37,427 nt of DNA, taken from a virus. The stretch lies in IMG/VR virus record IMGVR_UViG_3300042308_000104, positions 1 through 37,427 of that record; one strand, written 5' to 3'. This document shows, piece by piece, positions 17,894 through 27,583 of this stretch. A program made the position numbers and the translations under genes. Numbering within the stretch: position 1 is the stretch's first letter; each line of letters begins with the position of its first letter. Under the pieces are notes generated by a model. That model ran no database searches, was not told the origin of the DNA, and worked only from the letters and a program-made list of their open reading frames with translations.

Positions 17894-18405
17894 TTTTTTG
17901 TTGTCCTGTAATCAGGGGCAACTGCACCCTGAATAGCCGACACAATTTCTTTGACCACAAACTCAGGGAACTCAGCAATGATTTGCTCATATTGCTCAGT
18001 CACAGGCTCGTTAGTCTCAGACATCAAAAGGTGGAAATATTCTTCTACCTTCTGCTCTTCCATTGCTTGCAGTTGTGCAATCTGACGCAAAGATGTGCCA
18101 TCGAACACAAGGTCATCATCCGTCATTACCACAGTCTGCTTTTTATCATTGAGTGCTTTAAGAAAGTCTTCTCCACCCTCGACAATAGTTTGCCGCATAG
18201 GGGCAGACAGTCGCTGATAGATTTCTTCTACTTTCTCAGGGGTAGGGGCAAGAATGCGAGCCGTGATTTCTTCCATCTGCTTTTTGAGAGGAACACGAAC
18301 TCGCAAGTCAAATCTGACTTCTCCAAGGTCAACCGTAATCTTACGGATAGACAGTTCTTCACTGACCTGTTGGATGCCCTTGCCAAGTTTTTTGCTGATA
18401 GTCAT
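17887..18405 (-). CDS. Tail assembly chaperone (lambda G-like)
   Basis: A 172-residue acidic helical protein with a M-x-E-E-x-x-x-x-I-L-x-P-T-P-E-K-V-E-E-I segment and a C-terminal helix ending in P-D-Y-R-T-T-K-K-N. Its position (after tail tube, before tape measure) and the slippery A run at its very end identify it as the G-type chaperone. It keeps the tape measure soluble during tail assembly. It starts overlapping the preceding stop (ATGA). The product without frameshift is expected to be in excess. Confidence 0.8.
   Translation of the reverse strand: MTISKKLGKGIQQVSEELSIRKITVDLGEVRFDLRVRVPLKKQMEEITARILAPTPEKVEEIYQRLSAPMRQTIVEGGEDFLKALNDKKQTVVMTDDDLVFDGTSLRQIAQLQAMEEQKVEEYFHLLMSETNEPVTEQYEQIIAEFPEFVVKEIVSAIQGAVAPDYRTTKKN
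17890..17899 (-). promoter_or_regulatory. Programmed -1 frameshift site
   Basis: On the minus strand the zero-frame codons are ACA-AAA-AAA-AAC followed immediately by TAA. Both A-AAA-AAA (17899-17893) and A-AAA-AAC (17896-17890) fit the X-XXY-YYZ slippery rule. An AGGA about ten bases upstream could act as a stimulatory Shine-Dalgarno element. The arithmetic closes: 872 bases plus one re-read base equals 291 codons. Confidence 0.8.
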
Positions 18406-18632
18406 TCTGCTGTTCCTTTCAATAGTTTTTGGAAGATGGCATTGTTGAGCCGCACTACGTATTCCACTACTTCCTCAGGCGACATCTTGTCGGCATGAGC
18501 AATAGCGATTTCGTAGGCAAGGTGAATCCCCGCAATGCGTTGTTGCGGAAATCCAAACCAATTCTTCTGACCCGTTTGGGAAAGGGTCACTAGATAGGAA
18601 AGCAGGTCATTGCTGTTTTGTATTGTCGTCAT
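18402..18632 (-). CDS. Small protein between tail tube and chaperone, unknown
   Basis: A 76-residue helical protein with an N-W-F-G-F-P-Q-Q-R-I-A-G-I-H-L-A-Y-E-I-A segment that I do not recognise. The ATG at 18632 is preferred over one at 18659 because the latter lies inside the terminator hairpin. Its ribosome site is weak. The position corresponds to small unassigned tail proteins upstream of the chaperones in several siphoviruses. Expression would depend on readthrough of the terminator in front of it. Confidence 0.6.
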   Translation of the reverse strand: MTTIQNSNDLLSYLVTLSQTGQKNWFGFPQQRIAGIHLAYEIAIAHADKMSPEEVVEYVVRLNNAIFQKLLKGTAE

Positions 18633-18638
18633 CGTGTG

Positions 18639-18657
18639 AAAAAGCCCCCGAAGGGGC
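18639..18657 (-). terminator. Intrinsic terminator with UUCG tetraloop after the tail tube gene
   Basis: The leftward RNA reads GCCCC-UUCG-GGGGC-UUUUU, a 5-bp GC stem closed by the very stable cUUCGg loop and followed by five U. It lies three to five bases after the stop codon of the tail tube gene. Partial termination here would give excess tail tube mRNA over the downstream minor tail genes. Confidence 0.8.
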
Positions 18658-18662
18658 ATCCT

Positions 18663-19193
18663 TTAAGTGTTGGTAGACCAGCCGTAAGAGTTGCCGCCTG
18701 TTGGGTGAAGCGTGAAGATAAACTTGCCTTCAGCAGAAGGCGACATATCCCATTGCAAACCACCAACACGGGCGTTGAACGCATAGGCAACAGTGTTAGT
18801 GCCATCGTACACAGCAACAACGTAAGTGCGAATGGTTGTACCGTTGTACCCGTCTGTACGAATCTGCAAAAGAGCAGTGTCAGCAGGGTTCCATGCCGCA
18901 GTGATGGTCATGGAAGTCACTTGGTTCTGCGTAGTGATTTTTGCACCAGTACGAGCACCAGCCACTGAGTAAGCGGCAAAGGCATCATCTGCACCAAAAG
19001 CAGGGATAGCCTCTACGGGAACAGCTAGACCAGTACTAGGTGAACCAGTCCCGCCAGCGGCAGTACCAATGATGGAGCCGACTTGTGCTGTCCAAGTAGA
19101 CAGTTGTGCATCGGTCAGAGGGGTTGGAGTTGCGTCATCCTGCATCCACAGTGTTGCGGAATATCCCGGCATGACTTTATTGATTAGTGCCAT
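18663..19193 (-). CDS. Major tail tube protein
   Basis: A 176-residue protein, beta-rich, starting M-A-L-I-N-K-V-M-P-G-Y. Its C-terminal half (I-T-A-A-W-N-P-A-D, then V-x-A-Y-D-G-T-N-T-V-x-x-F and a W-D-x-S-P-S-A-E-G-K-F-x-F-T-L-H-P pattern) matches the lambda V/tail tube fold. It would polymerise into the tube around the tape measure. AAAGGA precedes the ATG, and a strong terminator follows directly, both fitting high expression. Confidence 0.8.
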   Translation of the reverse strand: MALINKVMPGYSATLWMQDDATPTPLTDAQLSTWTAQVGSIIGTAAGGTGSPSTGLAVPVEAIPAFGADDAFAAYSVAGARTGAKITTQNQVTSMTITAAWNPADTALLQIRTDGYNGTTIRTYVVAVYDGTNTVAYAFNARVGGLQWDMSPSAEGKFIFTLHPTGGNSYGWSTNT

Positions 19194-19230
19194 TTTTCTT
19201 TCCTTTCAAAATGAGTTGGTCAATCGTGTC

Positions 19231-19647
19231 TTATGTCGGAACATCCAAGGTGCAGTCCAGAATGATTTGGTTGAGTCCGAGTTCATTGTCGTAAGTGTTG
19301 TAGAGCCAATCCACATCTACTTTCGATACCACAAACCCCGACACCCCGCCAAACTGTCCTGAATATCCATGGAGTGATTGTAATATAGTGTTCGAGATAG
19401 AGAAAGCATCCTGCATACTTTGGGCAAAGATAGATACCTGAAAGACAGGTCTGTCGATGCCTTTGTTGCTTTGGATTTGACCCGTATAAACAGGCTGGTG
19501 GACATTCCTCAACTGCCAAGTGAGGAATTTCGGCTGGGTGGCAAAGTTACGGTTAAAGACCGCATAGACAGGAACAGGAGCCACCGTAGTGGTCAACTGA
19601 GCCTGTATTGCCTCCGCATAATCGACGGGATTCTGTTGTACGCTCAT
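19231..19647 (-). CDS. DUF3168-like tail terminator or completion protein
   Basis: A 138-residue protein. The pattern of an N-terminal helix followed by P-V-Y-x-V-F, then V-F-Q-V-S-I-F-A-Q and a helix with I-L-Q-S-L-H-G-Y-S-G-Q-F-G-G-V matches the DUF3168 neck or tail terminator family (gp17-like). It would cap the tail tube at the head-proximal end. Its start overlaps the stop of the head closure gene (ATGA). Confidence 0.7.
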   Translation of the reverse strand: MSVQQNPVDYAEAIQAQLTTTVAPVPVYAVFNRNFATQPKFLTWQLRNVHQPVYTGQIQSNKGIDRPVFQVSIFAQSMQDAFSISNTILQSLHGYSGQFGGVSGFVVSKVDVDWLYNTYDNELGLNQIILDCTLDVPT

Positions 19648-19988
19648 ACTGGCACCACAGGGTCATTGCGGTAGCAGGTAAAGGTGGCTTTCTGACGGTC
19701 ATTCGATTCCCGAACATCCGTGATTCGCCAATCCCTGTTGCGCCAAGTAATTGAGTATTTGTCTTGGTCATCTACCATCTGCTTCACATTGGGTGTGTAG
19801 TTCAGGGTAATGCTCACCAAGTCAGTATACGCCCGATATCTCTCTGAAATTCTCAGGCTATTGGCAATGTCGTGAACCAGCCCACGAGTCTCAAACCATG
19901 TCGTGACGGTTGTAGTCTGCTCACCAATAGCACTTACGCCATTGGTGACGTTGTTGATGGTGAGATTCTCGTATCTGACGATTGCCAT
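19644..19988 (-). CDS. Head closure or head-tail joining protein
   Basis: A 114-residue protein with a beta-barrel-like pattern (Y-S-I-T-W-R-N-R-D-W-R-I-T-D-V-R-E, then A-T-F-T-C-Y-R-N) like the head-tail joining proteins of the SPP1 gp16 type. The ATG at 19988 is used because it lies one base after the connector stop; longer reading would overlap the connector with no ribosome site. It sits between connector and tail terminator, where a stopper protein is expected. Confidence 0.6.
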   Translation of the reverse strand: MAIVRYENLTINNVTNGVSAIGEQTTTVTTWFETRGLVHDIANSLRISERYRAYTDLVSITLNYTPNVKQMVDDQDKYSITWRNRDWRITDVRESNDRQKATFTCYRNDPVVPV

Positions 19989-19989
19989 A

Positions 19990-20643
19990 TCACATGACCA
20001 AAGGCTTGTACGGACGAAGCAACTGCGCCACACCAAATGGAATCTCTTTGAGATTGATGTCGGTAGTGTTGGAGCGGTTGTTGTAGATGTGGGTCAACAG
20101 CATCAGCCCCGCTTGCTTGATGACGGGGTATTGAGCAATGATGCTGGTATTCTGGGTATAGGTCACCACAATCGGGTTGACGATGTTCTGGTTTAGATTG
20201 TTTGGCAATTGGTTCAGAATGACTCGGTTGCCTGTTGGGTCATACGAATACGCAGTGGTAGCAAGAGTTACCGGAACTGTGTTCGATGTGGTGTAGACCT
20301 CTACTTTGTTGATGGTCACACCAGTTGCACCAAGCCCTACCTCTGGCAAGTCAAGGAACCACTGAGTGTTGTAGACACCCAAGTTGGCGTAGTAAGTGCG
20401 CCATGTGGTTGGAAAGATTGCCAAGCCAAGAAAGTCCTCAATCGCCATCCGAGTGGCGAGTTCAATGGACTCTAGATATTGGTCTTGGCTTTCATCTTGG
20501 AACAGGTTAAGTTGCTGAGTGATTTCGTCAAGCGTCAGCCATGCAGTAGCCAAATCCCTCGAAACCTGCTCAATCTTGGCATAGTTAAAAGGATTGCGAT
20601 TGCCCGCATAAAACGGAGCAAGCGTCATGTTTTCTACTGGCAT
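19990..20643 (-). CDS. Head-tail connector (HK97 gp6-like)
   Basis: A 217-residue protein with an N-terminal helical region (A-T-A-W-L-T-L-D-E-I-T-Q-Q-L and L-E-S-I-E-L-A-T-R-M-A-I-E-D-F-L) typical of gp6-like connectors, which form the ring beneath the portal. The middle part is beta-rich, and the C-terminus has the common F-G-V-A-Q-L-L-R-P-Y-K ending. AAGGAG lies six bases before the ATG. Confidence 0.8.
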   Translation of the reverse strand: MPVENMTLAPFYAGNRNPFNYAKIEQVSRDLATAWLTLDEITQQLNLFQDESQDQYLESIELATRMAIEDFLGLAIFPTTWRTYYANLGVYNTQWFLDLPEVGLGATGVTINKVEVYTTSNTVPVTLATTAYSYDPTGNRVILNQLPNNLNQNIVNPIVVTYTQNTSIIAQYPVIKQAGLMLLTHIYNNRSNTTDINLKEIPFGVAQLLRPYKPLVM

Positions 20644-20653
20644 GGATTACTCC

Positions 20654-21676
20654 TTAAGCGGCAGATGCACGGACACCTGCAAACGGGTCACGGACAGTAG
20701 ACACAAGCCGCTTCTCGCAGTACATGGTCACGAATCCGGGTGCAGTTTCCTCCATCATTTGGCAAGTCATTTCTTCCACGTCTGCAATCGTCAGGAAACA
20801 TTCCCAGCAAGCAAGATAAATTGGGAAAGTGTTAGACAGGTAAGAGTTCGGAATAACAGGCCAGCCAAAAATAGAGCCGACAGCCCCGCCCTCTCCCGGT
20901 TCACCCAACTCCAAAAACAACGGCAAGTTGTTGGTGTCCTTCAACTGACGCAAAGTCTGAATCATGGTTGGAGTCATGTGCCATGCTACATTGCCCCGTG
21001 CCCAATACTGAGCAGGGAGAGTATTGGCAATGTCTACGATTTTGTTGTACGTAACCGTTGCACCAGCCAGCGACACAGTAGCAACAGTGTGGATGCCATT
21101 GGTCATAGCCGCACCGCTAGTGCCGTATGCAGAAGCGGCACCCGACAGGTACATATCCAAGCCACGCAAGCCTTCTGTTGCGCCTGTGATGGTTGTGGTG
21201 CTTCCAGATTGGTCATTGTTGGTTGCCATGGATGCACCTTCAACTTGTGCAAATTCCATCGCAAGGTCTTCAAGCAAACCAGCCTCTAACCCATTGATGT
21301 CGTCAAGAGCGGCAAGACGAACAGGCAACTGAGCCGTCACCACACGGGTGGGCAATTGCCAGAAGGTAGTCGCCACATTAGGACTACCAGAGTTTGGTGT
21401 AAAAGTGTAGCCCCATGGATTAGTCGAATTGGTGGCGTTACCTGTCTTGGCAACAAAAGCCACTGCCGACATATCCGGTGCTTTAATGTTCCTTGAACCC
21501 ATACGCAAAGGGTTGGCAAGACGGGCACGGGCAAATACATCATCGAAGTGAGTACGACCGCCGACATCCAGACCTGACCCAGTAAGGGTCGAAGCCTCAC
21601 GCAGGTCAATCGTCACACGCTCACCAGTGAGTAGTGACTGTTTGATGCCTTCTAAAATTTTCTTTTCTGCGGTCAT
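20654..21676 (-). CDS. Second major capsid protein paralogue, HK97 fold, no delta domain
   Basis: A 340-residue protein clearly homologous to the capsid protein encoded just upstream. Shared blocks include L-T-G-S-G, G-G-R-T, L-A-N-P-L-R, A-K-T-G-N-A, W-Q-L, A-L-D-D-I, G-L-E-A, a Gly-Ser-Thr-Thr-Thr loop after N-N-D-Q, G-L-R-G-L-D, Q-Y-W and the C-terminal P-G-F-x-T-x-Y-x-E-K-R-L. Homology starts at residue 28 here and at 108 in the paralogue, so this protein lacks the long N-terminal scaffold and resembles an already matured subunit. It may form pentamers, in analogy with T4 gp24, or be a minor capsid subunit. Its ribosome site GAGAGG can pair into a hairpin (21685-21700). Confidence 0.8.
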   Translation of the reverse strand: MTAEKKILEGIKQSLLTGERVTIDLREASTLTGSGLDVGGRTHFDDVFARARLANPLRMGSRNIKAPDMSAVAFVAKTGNATNSTNPWGYTFTPNSGSPNVATTFWQLPTRVVTAQLPVRLAALDDINGLEAGLLEDLAMEFAQVEGASMATNNDQSGSTTTITGATEGLRGLDMYLSGAASAYGTSGAAMTNGIHTVATVSLAGATVTYNKIVDIANTLPAQYWARGNVAWHMTPTMIQTLRQLKDTNNLPLFLELGEPGEGGAVGSIFGWPVIPNSYLSNTFPIYLACWECFLTIADVEEMTCQMMEETAPGFVTMYCEKRLVSTVRDPFAGVRASAA

Positions 21677-21684
21677 ATCATTTC

Positions 21685-21719
21685 CTCTCGTTGAAGAGAG
21701 AGGGGCTTGCGCCCCCCTC
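21685..21719 (-). promoter_or_regulatory. Two mutually exclusive hairpins between the capsid genes
   Basis: Hairpin A pairs CTCTC (21685-21689) with GAGAG (21696-21700) and buries most of the ribosome site of the second capsid gene. Hairpin B pairs 698-706 with 711-719 (GNRA-type GCAA loop in the RNA, one mismatch). Both use 21698-21700, so they cannot form together. B lacks a T run and is not a standard terminator. The pair could set the ratio of the two capsid proteins. Confidence 0.45.
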
Positions 21720-21725
21720 GCTTAA

Positions 21726-23069
21726 TTACGCACCCGTTGCGGTAGAACGGTAACGGATGATGCTGAACGGGTCTACTACGCTCGAGCACAAACGCTTTTC
21801 ACCATAGAAGGTGATAAATCCGGGTTGCGTTTGGTCGTAGCGACGAAGAACCATATTCAAGCGGTCAACGATGCTGTGTCCACGATTGAAGTCACCAAAA
21901 TACATTGGGAACAGGTTGGTTGTGCCAGCAGATGCACCTTTGGCGACAGGGCTGTCGACATAGGCGTTAACCACCACATCGTAGCCGAGCAGTTTGCCAA
22001 CAATGCCCTCGTACACCAGAGGAGACATACGCTCAAACACAGGGGTACCGTTGTCATCTTTCAGACCACGAATACCAGCCAGCATCAGAGGAGAAACCAA
22101 GAACTTGTTCTGGTTGCCCCAGTATTGTTGCGGCAGGCTATGCAAGAAAGTGATGATGTCTTCAAAGGTAACCAAGTTGGCAGAGCCGAAGCCGTTGGTA
22201 GTCAACTGGTCATAGGTGGCAAGGCTGTGCATACCATCAGAGTTAGCAGTACCAGACGAACCAAAAGCGGCTGTCGAGATAGTGCCACCAGTGTAGGAAG
22301 CATTCGAACCCGGATAAGAATCCAAACCACGCAAACCATCAGTACCACCAGTTGCAGTAGTGGTCGAACCTGCTTGGTCATTGTTGATAATCATGCTGGA
22401 GCCTTCAGCCTGACTGAATTCCACAAGCATGTCGTCAACTACGTTTGCTTCCAAACCATCGATGTCGTCAAGAGCGGCAGTACGAATTGGAAACTGCACG
22501 TTCAAGTCTTTAAGGTTCAACTGCCAAATAGAAGTCGATTCGGTAGTTGCCGCACCGTTGTTCTGAATGGCATAGCCCCATGCTGGTCCAGCGTTGCCCG
22601 TCTTTGCTCTAAACTGATAGGTTGCGCCATCAGTAGAGACATTGCGTGAAGTGCCACGCAAAGGGTTGGCAAGACGCAAGCGATGGAACACAGGGTCATA
22701 CGCAGTACGACCACCGATACCAGCACCAGAACCCGTCAGGGCAGATGCTTCGTTCATGTAAGCCGCATACTGGTCAACAGACTCAAAGAGTTTGAGTTCA
22801 TTTTGCACACGACCATTGCCTTTGGCAAAGTTGCGCAGTTGCTCAGTCACCATGCGGTTCACATCTGCACGAATAGTTCGGGCAGGTGCACGCATAATTT
22901 CTGGCACATTGATAGAAGCAACTTTTGCCTCTAGTGCATTGAACTTCTCTTCGATTTCCGCTTTAGCAGTTTCAACTGACGAAGCAACCGAGGTTTTCAT
23001 TTCTTCAATTTTGGACAGGTTTGATGCTTCAATAGCATCAACCTTCTCCAGTACTTTTTCGATACTCAT
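21726..23069 (-). CDS. Major capsid protein, HK97 fold, with N-terminal delta domain
   Basis: A 447-residue protein. Residues 1 to about 55 form a charged coiled coil and 55-105 a basic linker, together the delta (scaffolding) domain normally removed by the protease encoded immediately upstream. The HK97-fold capsid body begins near residue 105 (LTGSG and GGRT motifs) and ends with P-G-F-I-T-F-Y-G-E-K-R-L. The start overlaps the protease stop (ATGA). The gene order portal, protease, capsid is standard for HK97-like heads. Loops longer than in the second paralogue (about 255-300 and 385-400) would face outwards or contact neighbours. Confidence 0.88.
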   Translation of the reverse strand: MSIEKVLEKVDAIEASNLSKIEEMKTSVASSVETAKAEIEEKFNALEAKVASINVPEIMRAPARTIRADVNRMVTEQLRNFAKGNGRVQNELKLFESVDQYAAYMNEASALTGSGAGIGGRTAYDPVFHRLRLANPLRGTSRNVSTDGATYQFRAKTGNAGPAWGYAIQNNGAATTESTSIWQLNLKDLNVQFPIRTAALDDIDGLEANVVDDMLVEFSQAEGSSMIINNDQAGSTTTATGGTDGLRGLDSYPGSNASYTGGTISTAAFGSSGTANSDGMHSLATYDQLTTNGFGSANLVTFEDIITFLHSLPQQYWGNQNKFLVSPLMLAGIRGLKDDNGTPVFERMSPLVYEGIVGKLLGYDVVVNAYVDSPVAKGASAGTTNLFPMYFGDFNRGHSIVDRLNMVLRRYDQTQPGFITFYGEKRLCSSVVDPFSIIRYRSTATGA

Positions 23070-23887
23070 TTTGCGATTCCTTTTTGAATGCGTTTATCAA
23101 GTGCCTTTGCGAGTTCCCTTGCGGCAAGAGCCTCTAGGAGTGCATTGGCTTCCAATGCCACCGCATCAGAATCACTCTGAATTGGCGTTTTATCAAGCGG
23201 CTTTGTGACTGCCTCACGCAAGTCAACTGCACGTTTGAAAACCAAAGATGCGGTGGTCGCATCCTTTCTTGATAGACCCGCCTCACGCAAGGTCTTCTCA
23301 ACTGAACGGACATTCAGATGTCCATCGACATCGAACATCTCTAACTTTTGAATTTCGGCATCTGGATTGTTCGGGTACATGACCACAGACACTTCACGCA
23401 GACCGCCTTTGCTAATTTGGAAGTAGGCTTCCTCAAAATCAAAGTCCATTGCCTCAGGGTCAAGAATATCGCCTTCAGCGTTGACCCAGCATGCTTCGTC
23501 AGCGTATGCGCCAACAGACACACCGCCAAACATACCGGGAGATTCTTTGAGGATTTGGTAGAGGTCATTGCCTCCTGCCGTGTTAAGGTAGAGCCGACCT
23601 TCAGCAGTCATGCCGTCATCGTCAAACTCAAACTTTGTCCACTCACCCATCGGCATACCGAGGTCATTGTGGTTGAGGAACATTGGAAGCGGCTTACCTG
23701 CTTCTTTGAATTCTTTTGCCCAATCGGCAAAACCTTCTGGCTGGTAATTGAACTTGCGCCCGTCAGCACCTTCACGGGCACCCCAAGTGGTTACTCGGGC
23801 TTCAATTTGTCCGCTTGGGTTTTGTGCTTCGTTTGGGCTTTGCGCTAACTTTACTTGCGCTTCGCATACCAGAGTCAGTTTTTTCAT
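23066..23887 (-). CDS. Prohead maturation protease, HK97 gp4-like
   Basis: A 273-residue protein. The catalytic His in L-N-H-N-D (H73) and the Ser in G-G-V-S-V-G (S124) have the spacing of the HK97-type serine protease. The core ends around residue 175 (R-E-V-S-V-V-M-Y-P-x-N). The remaining 100 residues are helical and charged and probably bind the scaffold or are self-cleaved. It would remove the delta domain from the capsid protein encoded next. GGGGTG precedes the ATG. The 5' end overlaps a possible small gene in another frame. Confidence 0.85.
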   Translation of the reverse strand: MKKLTLVCEAQVKLAQSPNEAQNPSGQIEARVTTWGAREGADGRKFNYQPEGFADWAKEFKEAGKPLPMFLNHNDLGMPMGEWTKFEFDDDGMTAEGRLYLNTAGGNDLYQILKESPGMFGGVSVGAYADEACWVNAEGDILDPEAMDFDFEEAYFQISKGGLREVSVVMYPNNPDAEIQKLEMFDVDGHLNVRSVEKTLREAGLSRKDATTASLVFKRAVDLREAVTKPLDKTPIQSDSDAVALEANALLEALAARELAKALDKRIQKGIAK

Positions 23888-24017
23888 GTATCACCCCGTC
23901 TTGGATAGATTGATTGTCATGTCGTATCGTGTGGGGTTTTTCTAATACTGGAAGTTTAACACTAGGTTTCTTGACTTGTGAAGTCAAATGCGCTAATGCC
24001 TTCTTTAGTAGGTTCAT
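23802..24017 (-). CDS. Possible small basic protein between portal and protease
   Basis: A 71-residue reading frame with a good ribosome site (GGGAG, eight bases before ATG) that starts right after the portal stop. The protein is basic with an N-terminal amphipathic helix (LLKKALAHLTSQVKK) and a Lys/Pro/Ser-rich tail. The last 86 bases overlap the protease start in another frame. The wide gap between portal and protease would be empty without it. It could equally be a chance frame; no family is recognised. Confidence 0.4.
   Translation of the reverse strand: MNLLKKALAHLTSQVKKPSVKLPVLEKPHTIRHDNQSIQDGVIHEKTDSGMRSASKVSAKPKRSTKPKRTN
23971..23987. repeat. Inverted repeat TTGACTT-GTG-AAGTCAA
   Basis: A perfect 7-bp inverted repeat with a 3-bp spacer lies between the portal and protease genes, inside the possible small gene. 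It could be a hairpin in the late mRNA or a protein-binding site; there is no T run after it in either direction. Confidence 0.6.
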
Positions 24018-24018
24018 T

Positions 24019-25416
24019 TTAAGTGCTCCCGATATTCATGCGGCGAGTTTGATTGCCACCACCACCGCCTGTGTCTTGGGGAGAACTCCCCGGCAATGGC
24101 TCCTGAGGCTTGCCTCCAGACTGCAACTCATCTGCCCCTTCGATTTCAGGCATATTGAGATACTCCCTTGCCTCATTGGGAGTCATAATCCCTGCTTTGA
24201 CCCCAGCAGTTGCAAAATTCATTTGGTCAAGCGGGGCACCCTTCAAGAAATCTTTGGTGTCAAACCTGACGCACAAGTTAGGGTAACCACGGAATAAGTG
24301 TTGCTTAAGTTTTTGCTCCACATTGATGACCATTGGATACATGACGGTCTTGTAGAACTCATCTAGCATGGTCTGAGTATTGTTGTATTTTTGGTCTTCA
24401 ATACCCAGCATGGCAGGTGGAACACCGAAAAGACCGCAGATGCGCTTCATGGTCTGCACTTTTAACTGCGCCGCCTCTGCATCTTGTAGCGTCAGCATAT
24501 CGATGGGCGTGTACTTCATGCCTTGGTCAAGAAGCATACCCTGACCAGCCTTGGATGGGTCACTGTTGCGAGCACCCGTCATGGCATTCCATGTTTCCTT
24601 GATGCGTGAGGCTACTTCTTTAAACTTGGCATCTGGGATGACTTGGTCAGTAGTAAACATGCCCGAAGGCTTTGCCCCGTTCTGCATAATGAAGTTGGCA
24701 TAGATGTCGATGTCTTGGTCAAGTGCAACCAACTCAGTAGCCAGAATGCCTTTGTTGAAGCCTGACGAGCCTTGCCAAGCGGCTTCTTTCAAGTGCATGA
24801 CTTGGTGGTATTCAAGCGGCTCATCTTTGGAGAAGCCGTAAGATGGGGTAGACAGTCGATATTGGGGATAACGAGTAGGGGTTAATACTACCGTAATCAA
24901 GGTGGAATCGAGGTTATACATCTCAATCGGTGTCTGACTTGGGTCTTTTTGGTCTTTGCGCCACCACAGGGTAAATGACTCCCCTGCCAAGTCCTGCCAC
25001 ATACACCACTGGTACCAAAACTCATATTGGTTTTGAAAGTTGTTCGGGTTATGGAGCAGGTTTAGAACTTGCTTTGCTTTGGCTTTGTCCCGTGCCCCGA
25101 CAGATTCATCCCGCAAAGCATCTACAAAAGTGCCGTCATCTTGCTTGGACATGATGCTAAGAGAACACTGCGCCAATGCCCGTGCTTTCACGCCAACGCA
25201 AGCCATGATGGTGCTATTACGGGTAAGTGCAGAAATGTCCAGCACCCGCCCTGCAACCGTTGTGCTTGAGGTGGTGACATAAAGCAATTGCTGGGCTGTC
25301 TGCCCTTTGTTGGCGGTTCCATAGATGACTTGGTTGCCCAACTGGAGTTGACCAAGCACCGTGTTGCTCTCATTTTGAGCCACACTTTTCCGCTTAAAAA
25401 TGTCCAGAATTGCCAT
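24019..25416 (-). CDS. Portal protein, HK97 family
   Basis: A 465-residue protein. Motifs typical of HK97-like portals are present: the P-N-N-F-Q-N-Q-Y-E-F-W-Y-Q-W segment near 130, L-D-Q-G-M-K-Y-T-P-I near 300, and K-R-I-C-G-L-F-G-V-P-P-A-M-L-G near 335. These are followed by the T-Q-T-M-L-D-E-F-Y-K-x-V-M-Y-P helix. The C-terminus is a Gly-rich disordered tail. It forms the dodecameric DNA gate and binds the terminase encoded upstream. GGGG lies before the ATG. Confidence 0.88.
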   Translation of the reverse strand: MAILDIFKRKSVAQNESNTVLGQLQLGNQVIYGTANKGQTAQQLLYVTTSSTTVAGRVLDISALTRNSTIMACVGVKARALAQCSLSIMSKQDDGTFVDALRDESVGARDKAKAKQVLNLLHNPNNFQNQYEFWYQWCMWQDLAGESFTLWWRKDQKDPSQTPIEMYNLDSTLITVVLTPTRYPQYRLSTPSYGFSKDEPLEYHQVMHLKEAAWQGSSGFNKGILATELVALDQDIDIYANFIMQNGAKPSGMFTTDQVIPDAKFKEVASRIKETWNAMTGARNSDPSKAGQGMLLDQGMKYTPIDMLTLQDAEAAQLKVQTMKRICGLFGVPPAMLGIEDQKYNNTQTMLDEFYKTVMYPMVINVEQKLKQHLFRGYPNLCVRFDTKDFLKGAPLDQMNFATAGVKAGIMTPNEAREYLNMPEIEGADELQSGGKPQEPLPGSSPQDTGGGGGNQTRRMNIGST

Positions 25417-25445: not shown

Positions 25446-27113
25446 TCAGAAACTGCGGAAACCGAAAGAAGAATTAACAAAAGGATTATCCAATGAGCAG
25501 TGTACCGCAATAATCAATGCAATGATTCCGTCAACTTTTGCGGCTTTGTCTGCTTCATTCTTCCTGACTTTAATGTTTCCGTTAACGTCTGTAAAGACCT
25601 CGCAGTTAGACAACTGCCAGCCCACGAACGGATTGCCGTCATGACGAATTTGCTTGTTTAGAATAGATTTCTCAACAAATTTTGACGGGTTGTTGAGAAC
25701 AGCCATCCCTTGACCAACCTTCTTGACTGGCACCCCTGCCTCATATAAACGGGCAACCAAAGAGGCGGCATTGTAGGCATCGTAGCCTACCTCCTTTACC
25801 TGATACTTGTCGCATTCGCTAGTAATGTAACTGAAGATTTCTCGGTCATCCATGACGTTGCCTTCTGTCAGTTTTAAAACACCTGTACTGATTGCCCCAC
25901 GGAAGATGTCAAGGTAATGCTTGGGAATCAATCCAAGGCTTTCCTCTGGCAAGAAAAACTTGAAGTCAGCCTCATAGTCATTTTCTCCGTATCTGCGTAG
26001 GGTGCAGACAGCGTTCAAGTCACGGGTAGCGGCAAGGTCAAAGCCAATAAACACTGCTTCCGGTTCAGGCTTGGATTCTTGACGAATACTGGCAGGGTCA
26101 TCCCAGTAAGAGCGGTCAATCCATGCGGCGTTGGCAGATACGTAAAGGTTAAGGGTCTTACAAAGAAACTCATTTAGGGCGGCAGGTTTATGCCTTGCTT
26201 CCTCTGCACGATTTTGGATGGCATCTTCGAACACCGAAATGCCGTGCATCGGGTTGACCTTCTTCCATGTTGACGGCTCCCGCCAATCGTCACCGGGGTC
26301 AGGGCGGTAAAGCAATCCAAACCATCTTGGGTTGTCTTTGGCATCCCCGTTGAGCATGGCTTCGTACATTGCCATGTCTTCATAGAACTTGGTGTCCTTG
26401 GTAAATGATGCGGTGGTAATGTAGATGCGTAGAGGGTTCTGTCGGGCAACCATGCCTGAGTGAAGAACTTCAATGGAGTTGCGGTCAATGATTTGAGCCG
26501 CCTCATCCACAATGACGCAGGAGGGGTTTTTGCCGTCACCCGTTTTCTTGGTGTCTCGGGACAAGGCTTTGAACATGGATTGCGTGTCCCCTGCCTTGGT
26601 AATCTGATACTTGGACAAAGCAAAGTGTCCAGCCATTGCCGAAGGCATAGTTTCGATAAAGCCCTTTGCGGCATCAAAAACGATGGTTGCCTGTTCCCGA
26701 TTGGTTGCCAAGGTAAACACCTCCGCACCAGCCTCACTGAACACCAACTCATAGAGGGCAATAACTGCCGTCAAGGTTGACTTACCAGCCTTGCGAGGAA
26801 TGAACAGTATTACGTCAGTCACCATGCGCTTAGTGGCATCCCGCTTTGAGCGAAAGCCGTATACCGCACAGATGAAGAATATCTGGAAAGGTTCCAGTAT
26901 TACAGAGTCACCAGCCTGTGGTCCTTTGGTGTGCCGCAGGTTGTTGGCAAACTCCAGTATGTGCTGGGGATAGTCAGGGTCAAAGACCCATTCCCACTCT
27001 TGGTTCTCATACTGGTTAATAAACCGCTGACAAGCCAGCCGAATGTCTCGGTTGACGTTAATTTCGCCCTTTGCCACGTCGATGGCATAACGGACACCCG
27101 TTTGCCAATCCAT
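25446..27113 (-). CDS. terL: Terminase large subunit
   Basis: A 555-residue protein of the HK97 gp2-like (Terminase_1) group. The ATPase has a Walker A IPRKAGKST (105-113) and a Walker B VIVDEA (about 200-205). The nuclease starts at G-F-D-L-A-A (D359), with a second Asp at 365. The C-terminal part ends F-V-N-S-S-F-G-F-R-S-F. It packages DNA into proheads and cuts the concatemer. The ATG at 27113 is chosen because AAAGG lies seven bases upstream; an in-frame TTG at 27119 overlaps the stop of the small subunit. Confidence 0.9.
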   Translation of the reverse strand: MDWQTGVRYAIDVAKGEINVNRDIRLACQRFINQYENQEWEWVFDPDYPQHILEFANNLRHTKGPQAGDSVILEPFQIFFICAVYGFRSKRDATKRMVTDVILFIPRKAGKSTLTAVIALYELVFSEAGAEVFTLATNREQATIVFDAAKGFIETMPSAMAGHFALSKYQITKAGDTQSMFKALSRDTKKTGDGKNPSCVIVDEAAQIIDRNSIEVLHSGMVARQNPLRIYITTASFTKDTKFYEDMAMYEAMLNGDAKDNPRWFGLLYRPDPGDDWREPSTWKKVNPMHGISVFEDAIQNRAEEARHKPAALNEFLCKTLNLYVSANAAWIDRSYWDDPASIRQESKPEPEAVFIGFDLAATRDLNAVCTLRRYGENDYEADFKFFLPEESLGLIPKHYLDIFRGAISTGVLKLTEGNVMDDREIFSYITSECDKYQVKEVGYDAYNAASLVARLYEAGVPVKKVGQGMAVLNNPSKFVEKSILNKQIRHDGNPFVGWQLSNCEVFTDVNGNIKVRKNEADKAAKVDGIIALIIAVHCSLDNPFVNSSFGFRSF

Positions 27114-27115
27114 GG

Positions 27116-27583
27116 TCAACCTTTAGGTCCACGCATCAGTTTTGCCATTGGGGTGTCTTCTTCCATCTTGCCAGCCGACAGGCGGCTGCGGGGAGTCAGC
27201 CCGAGTTCATTCATTAGCTGGATGATTAGCGTTGTGGTCTTGTTTCGAATGGAAATAAGCGGATTCGGTCCCGGTGTCGAGCCGTTGTTGTAGTTGATGA
27301 TGAGCGTGTTCTTGCGGATGCTTCTTGTGCAGTGCACGTAGGTGTCAATGTGGTCGGCAAGAATAGACAGCACATGCTTGTCTTGGTCATTGCCAATGCC
27401 ATACACCTCGAACAGGAAAGCCGAAGTTTCTTCAATGAACTTGTCTTTGTCCCAAGAATCAGGATTGTCCATCCATTCGGCTTTGGGAATCCGCTTTCTA
27501 ATACTCTGCGGCAAAAGGACAGCCCTCTCCCCTCTTGGAGTTGTCCCGTCAATCAAATGAAGTTCTGGCGGTTTTTTGTTCAT
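27116..27583 (-). CDS. terS: Terminase small subunit, P27 family
   Basis: A 155-residue protein. The pattern P-K-A-E-W with a following W-D-x-D-K-F-I-E-E-T helix, then S-I-R-K-N-T-L-I and a P-N-P-L-I-S-I-R-N-K-T-T-T-L-I-I-Q-L-M-N-E-L-G-L-T-P motif is typical of P27-type small terminases. It recognises the packaging site and delivers DNA to the large subunit. It starts the leftward late operon. No ribosome site is visible; instead a hairpin lies 13 bases before the start. Confidence 0.8.
   Translation of the reverse strand: MNKKPPELHLIDGTTPRGERAVLLPQSIRKRIPKAEWMDNPDSWDKDKFIEETSAFLFEVYGIGNDQDKHVLSILADHIDTYVHCTRSIRKNTLIINYNNGSTPGPNPLISIRNKTTTLIIQLMNELGLTPRSRLSAGKMEEDTPMAKLMRGPKG

Follow-up and report, generated by a model that had tools for sequence, protein, structure and literature searches.

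Two tandem HK97-fold capsid paralogues, the second without the scaffold coiled coil, are conserved in a lineage of small aquatic siphophages

Why would a siphophage with a genome of modest size keep two HK97-fold capsid genes side by side? The locus that raises this question lies in a viral contig of 37,427 nucleotides (IMG/VR record IMGVR_UViG_3300042308_000104, positions 1 to 37,427), the whole of which we call the window. Two consecutive open reading frames on its minus strand, separated by 49 nt, encode the capsid proteins that we call A and B (Table 1). The succession of TerL, portal, protease, A, B and connector genes is typical of a siphovirus head module, and no Rfam family matched in window positions 18000-24500.

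Table 1. Features of the head-gene region, in order of transcription; positions are those of the window.
Feature	Position	Strand	Support or remark
TerL	25446-27119	minus	
Portal protein	24019-25416	minus	PF04860 E 1.7e-62
S78 prohead protease	23066-23887	minus	PF04586 E 1.6e-9; phrog_3244 E 1.9e-13
Capsid protein A, 447 aa, full N-terminal scaffold (delta) domain	21726-23069	minus	PF05065 E 1.5e-26; phrog_10 E 4.5e-27
Predicted coiled-coil part of A scaffold domain (residues 3-52), absent from B	22914-23063	minus	low-confidence AF2 helix
A Glu107, P1-like residue of putative site [LMIV]-x-E/A-S (slash, putative cut)	22749-22751	minus	weighted frequency 1.00 in 151 distinct A proteins
GC-rich hairpin in A-B spacer, T-run weak (TCTCTCTTC)	21698-21719	minus	spacer MFE -23.3 kcal/mol
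Capsid protein B, 340 aa, paralogue of A without scaffold coiled-coil part	20654-21676	minus	PF05065 E 4.5e-18
B N-terminal helix-strand (residues 3-24), PDAR-like candidate scaffold remnant	21605-21670	minus	DSSP on model: H3-17, E21-24
B Glu27, P1-like residue of putative site L-R-E/A-S	21596-21598	minus	weighted frequency 1.00 in 157 distinct B proteins
Head-tail connector, directly 3' of B	19990-20643	minus	phrog_442 E 7.5e-13

The relationship between the two proteins is clear. BLASTP aligns nearly all of B with A at 40% identity over 361 alignment columns (E 1e-77), both proteins match PHROG major-head families, and both exceed the curated Pfam cut-off of 24.2 bits for PF05065 (93.9 bits for A, 66.1 bits for B). 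The first-pass annotation of this DNA had called a tandem of HK97-fold capsid paralogues at these coordinates, and that reading holds; the sequence blocks that it named all lie inside the BLASTP alignment. By sequence profile, the nearest solved structure for both A (E 4e-9) and B (E 7e-7) is the capsid protein of RcGTA, Rcc01687, which serves as a single capsid protein. Structure prediction for the two proteins, using alignments from which rows of the isolate P19250A were left out, bore out the fold in one of them. The AF2 model of B (pLDDT 68) has the HK97 capsid fold over its whole length, with VIA Z scores of ~21 over ~250 residues to the RcGTA capsid (6tb9), a top structural match, and to the cf-PICI EcCI2 capsid (9gyi), and of 17.9 and 17.7 to D3 and HK97 prohead I, respectively. 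The model of A, built from 29 sequences, has a mean pLDDT of 51 and is too poor for fold comparison.

Over the mature body, A and B are nearly co-linear and have 46 invariant columns in common, the core invariants of A being kept in B. Some positions are fixed differently (for example, R154 in A versus V75 in B, and G423 in A versus A320 in B), and in the joint alignment three loops of A are missing only in B, all within the region that corresponds to the A-domain. The length of B is mostly 337-360 residues among relatives; most of the longer B reading frames are upstream extensions that overlap the end of A in another frame, and we discounted them as longer B proteins.

The A-B pair is universal in the lineage, an extensive family of small phages from fresh and marine waters with genomes of ~37 kb, wherever a contig has room for both genes; the exceptions are two outgroups and one unusual junction. 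We collected 382 sequences from viral contigs, genome contigs and a few other records, with some contigs taken more than once, and found A followed by B, in the same order and on the same strand, in 355 of them. A single A or B occurred in 26 sequences, 22 of which are cut by the contig end. Two of the other four (L300 and L301) are distant single-capsid phages that we took as outgroups. In the third (L270:7338-7680), an HNH-endonuclease-like reading frame, probably a homing element, replaces the hairpin between A and B, and the start of B is present after it. The fourth, from a Polymorphobacter MAG (L246, 207-6207), has an A fragment and no B in 6 kb, but it is no clear case of B loss: the phage sequence stops shortly after A and its hairpin and is followed by bacterial-looking sequence, so that this may be a chimeric contig or an odd junction. 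The one close phage isolate, Methylophilaceae phage P19250A (KX815270), carries the same tandem, at 57% identity for A (APC43890) and 52% for B (APC43891); its record lists one 'gene transfer agent capsid protein' and one 'hypothetical protein', the latter being B, so the second capsid gene is unrecognised there. Two contigs are peculiar in other respects. One of 76 kb (IMGVR_UViG_3300022748_000017; L065, L227, L296) has two different A-B pairs ~40 kb apart and, at twice the usual genome size, is either an assembly artifact that fuses two phages or a genuine double genome. Another, of 38.9 kb (JAHEYD010000010.1; L241), is binned in an archaeal MAG of Candidatus Nitrosotalea, most likely by mis-binning.

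B is also an old and maintained gene. In a tree of both proteins, a single branch with SH-aLRT support of 100 divides A from B sequences, which thus form separate clades. Among the first 241 loci, which contain 157 distinct A and 166 distinct B gene sequences, median pairwise dN/dS is 0.195 for B and 0.169 for A, with a maximum of 0.46, values to be read with the high dS of many pairs (median ~0.9) in mind. No decayed copy of B was found among the loci examined. A dN/dS of ~0.20, far from one, together with this lack of decay indicates that B is maintained by purifying selection; the erosion in relatives that the first pass had named as the outcome that would speak against a functional second gene is not what we see. 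Evolutionary distances of B track those of A, protease, portal and connector (r 0.71-0.73), slightly less closely than those genes track one another, and B therefore moves together with the rest of the head module. A duplication within the lineage is likely, and we go no further than that because, on rooting with the two nearest single-MCP phages (VW-6S and IMGVR 15682261), outgroup branches of 2-3 changes per site leave the monophyly of A unsupported.

How much of the scaffold domain does B lack? It had been described as having no delta domain and as beginning where the scaffold of A ends, a description that needs amending. What B is without corresponds roughly to A residues 1-65, the coiled-coil part, for which the joint alignment finds no counterpart in B; in the A model, this part is a long N-terminal helix with pLDDT of about 60-70. 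B keeps ~26 residues, modeled as a helix and a strand, before the invariant Glu and the mature N-arm motif common to both proteins. A fused scaffold of the HK97/D3 type consists of a coiled coil and a PDAR (P-domain associated region), ~100 residues before the cleavage site; A has this arrangement, its long helix being modeled at low confidence, and the N-terminus of B is too short for it. HK97 gp5 and the major capsid protein of Pseudomonas phage D3 resemble A in having a fused scaffold domain that is removed by the phage protease, but in both phages one capsid protein fills hexamers and pentons, and there is no second paralogue.

The D3 structure suggests what the short end of B might be. 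In D3, residues 81-113 form the PDAR (helix 81-94, linker, strand 104-109), which clamps the scaffold to the shell; the residues before it form coiled-coil towers, and cleavage follows it (PMC12749128). The VIA alignment of the B model with D3 prohead 1 starts by pairing model residue 2 with D3 chain residue 81, so that in the model the PDAR corresponds to the B N-terminus. B thus resembles a capsid protein stripped of its tower but still bearing the clamp, in a region modeled at pLDDT 62-67. MAFFT places the N-terminal helix of B at A68-87, weakly; the profile-profile alignment of A and B begins at A101/B22, does not reach into this region and does not support homology of the helix to the end of the A scaffold.

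The same short end bears on proteolysis. Just before an invariant GG(R), A and B share the motif [LMIV]-x-E-A-S-x-L-T-G-S-G, whose cleavage-like portion, [LMIV]-x-E-A-S, is equally conserved in the two proteins (weighted frequencies in the 157 distinct B proteins: A28 0.99, S29 0.97). Several prohead proteases cut behind x-x-E motifs, and the invariant Glu of A and B, with a hydrophobic residue at P3, is in a similar setting. The T4 protease gp21 has an I/L-x-E site. The prohead protease of SPN3US, gp245, has an AXE site (PMC10052503), and in T4 the prohead protease removes 10 residues from gp24 and 65 from gp23 (PMC9958956). The motif in B comes after 26 residues, a gp24-like short propeptide if the putative site, read from the sequence, is used. 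The S78 protease presumably processes A, and B is probably cleaved as well, because the invariant Glu stands in the common [LMIV]-x-E/A site and a short pro-region has been kept. The proposal that B comes ready matured from its gene and can dispense with the protease is therefore unsupported.

A second conserved element lies between the two genes. A-B spacers are mostly 47-82 nt long and very different in sequence, yet nearly all of the 118 distinct spacers contain a GC-rich hairpin, usually followed by Ts. Across 127 distinct sequences downstream of A, 91% are terminator-like and 99% fold below -12 kcal/mol. No terminator-like sequence follows B, TerL, portal or connector (0% each); the figure is 1% downstream of the protease gene and 33% downstream of the gene in the major-tail-protein position. 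Against dinucleotide shuffles, the mean z is -2.7 (116 distinct spacers). The window's own hairpin has a strong stem and a poor T-run and was not called by a consensus terminator scanner. Downstream of the gene in the major-tail-protein position (18663-19193), the window has another terminator-like hairpin (18644-18657, minus strand), a feature also found in one-third of relatives, and such hairpins may mark high-copy structural genes. The A-B hairpin is a probable leaky terminator/attenuator or 3' stabilizer of the A mRNA, and it probably lowers expression of B and of everything downstream; its frequency after A and absence after B place B on the low-expression side. Because the hairpin would also reduce expression of the tail genes, B need not be what it is tuned for: the likely effect, most transcription for the abundant protein A, fits a minority shell subunit and would hold equally if only the tail genes mattered.

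What, then, does B do? We infer that it is made at lower dosage than A, is cleaved, is present in virions and sits in pentons. That B is a shell subunit of the virion is very probable. That A is the scaffold-bearing major protein and B a low-copy, co-assembling subunit, most likely a T4 gp24-like penton, we regard as having somewhat better than even chances. In this penton model, B is an old duplicate of A that would have lost the coiled-coil part of the scaffold. First, the hairpin 3' of A would cut transcription into B and the downstream genes, leaving B in the minority. Second, B would enter the prohead by the HK97 body that it shares with A and by its short helix-strand. The latter could grip the P-domain in the manner of the D3 PDAR, and B would add no coiled-coil tower inside. 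Finally, the S78 protease would cut after A107 and B27 to give mature subunits of ~340 and 313 aa, and B pentons would occupy the non-portal vertices, as gp24 pentamers do, at 11 vertices, beside gp23 in T4. The most economical reading is a division of labor in one lattice, with A as the scaffold-bearing major subunit and B in the minority; an HK97-fold subunit that is obligatory but rare would find its natural place in the pentons, with T4 as the precedent. The A-domain, to which the three loops lost in B correspond, lines the capsomer axes, and mutations that bypass T4 gp24 map to the A domain (PMC9958956); shorter A-domain loops are compatible with pentons but no proof of them. A penton without towers would be a departure, because the D3 penton carries a scaffold tower (PMC12749128).

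The alternative to be taken most seriously, although we consider it rather unlikely, is a mosaic shell in which hexamers (and pentons) contain both A and B, combined at random or with B in a fixed minority proportion. B would then have no specific lattice position, and dilution of the coiled-coil towers would tune interior crowding or head size. The common fold and near co-linearity of the mature bodies would permit such mixing, and scaffold coiled-coil length does correlate with capsid size (PMC12749128). There is also a structural parallel in the PDB: family 2B encapsulins of Streptomyces lydicus (9bje, 9bix) are described as building one two-component shell from two HK97-fold paralogues, although these are cellular nanocompartments with no scaffold, protease or portal. 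Strict 1:1 retention of the genes, the fixed A/B differences and the loops lost only in B argue against a mosaic; such long retention with fixed differences suggests a distinct niche rather than random mixing.

It is improbable that B is expressed like A and forms an alternative major shell under some conditions, with the hairpin serving only to end or stabilize the A mRNA. A 3' hairpin can protect the mRNA upstream of it, and the ribosome-binding region of B looks normal. Nevertheless, most relatives have a T-run after the hairpin, and B alone probably would not assemble, since the coiled-coil part is missing from it and no independent scaffold gene can be recognized next to it. There is similarly little to recommend B as a specialist of the portal vertex, taking up subunits of the portal-proximal hexamers, where a tower and the 12-fold portal could collide: low copy number, as from the hairpin, would be enough for this role, and B is without the coiled coil that projects inward in HK97 and D3 proheads, but no feature of B points to portal contact, and HK97 fits its portal with one capsid protein and a flexible scaffold (PMC10275583). 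Finally, a role for B outside the virion, as a regulator of assembly or a remnant that persists for some other purpose, would suit its 'hypothetical protein' label in P19250A and is most unlikely given purifying selection over the whole body, its narrow length range, the invariants that it shares with A and the lack of decayed copies.

Some relatives carry additional domains on B. At nine loci in two sub-lineages (L133, L134, L137 and L254-L256; L273, L294 and L295), a ~100-aa domain, phrog_2859, is fused in frame 5' of B. Synechococcus phage S-CBS3 and Roseobacter phage CRP-406 have long capsid proteins that begin with the same domain, which also matches a Halogranum virus prohead protease. 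In one further relative (L139:6095-7333), B has an insert of ~70 aa after FVAKTGNAT, in the E-loop region, that matches tail-fiber families phrog_21413 and phrog_38233 and is possibly a display domain on the shell. We saw N-terminal fusions and E-loop inserts on B and none on A; B may have more freedom to bear cargo. The fullest version of the penton model thus has two tandem paralogues dividing the labor: A as scaffold-bearing hexamer protein, B as penton protein keeping the shell-clamping end of the scaffold, the A:B ratio set by a conserved attenuator, and in some lineages extra domains carried by B inside the head or on an E-loop insert. We offer this complete picture tentatively, as a candidate that falls a little short of an even chance.

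A capsid paralogue for a special position is already known from T4, and gp24, which the first pass had invoked, is indeed the closest precedent: a separately encoded vertex protein, presumed to have arisen with gp23 by gene duplication within the HK97 fold, whose propeptide, like the putative one of B, is much shorter than that of the major capsid protein (PMC9958956). The systems also differ. In T4, a large myovirus with a prolate head, the core scaffold is separate, whereas here the scaffold is fused to A; gp23 and gp24 are ~20% identical, compared with 40% for A and B; and the A-B pair has a terminator-like hairpin between its genes and a vertex position for B that we infer. Moreover, the B profile matched RcGTA capsid chains and no T4 chain among PDB sequences, which makes the likeness to gp24 one of analogy and not of membership. 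As far as we have searched, the new elements are a capsid pair throughout a lineage of ~37-kb siphophages with a fused scaffold, a second subunit that is tower-less and clamp-bearing, and a conserved hairpin between the genes. In the papers that we searched, there is no account of tandem HK97 capsid pairs in siphophages; the P19250A genome paper may mention one.

There are several implications. For annotation, hundreds of relatives have a second capsid protein that is listed as 'hypothetical' in the one annotated record. More broadly, if the penton model is true, dedicated pentons are not limited to large T4-like phages and would have had a separate origin in abundant aquatic siphophages. Cultured P19250A would then provide a small, clean system for studying how HK97-fold subunits discriminate between fivefold and sixfold positions, and the lineage as a whole would allow one to ask which half of a fused scaffold, the tower or the shell clamp, is needed where.
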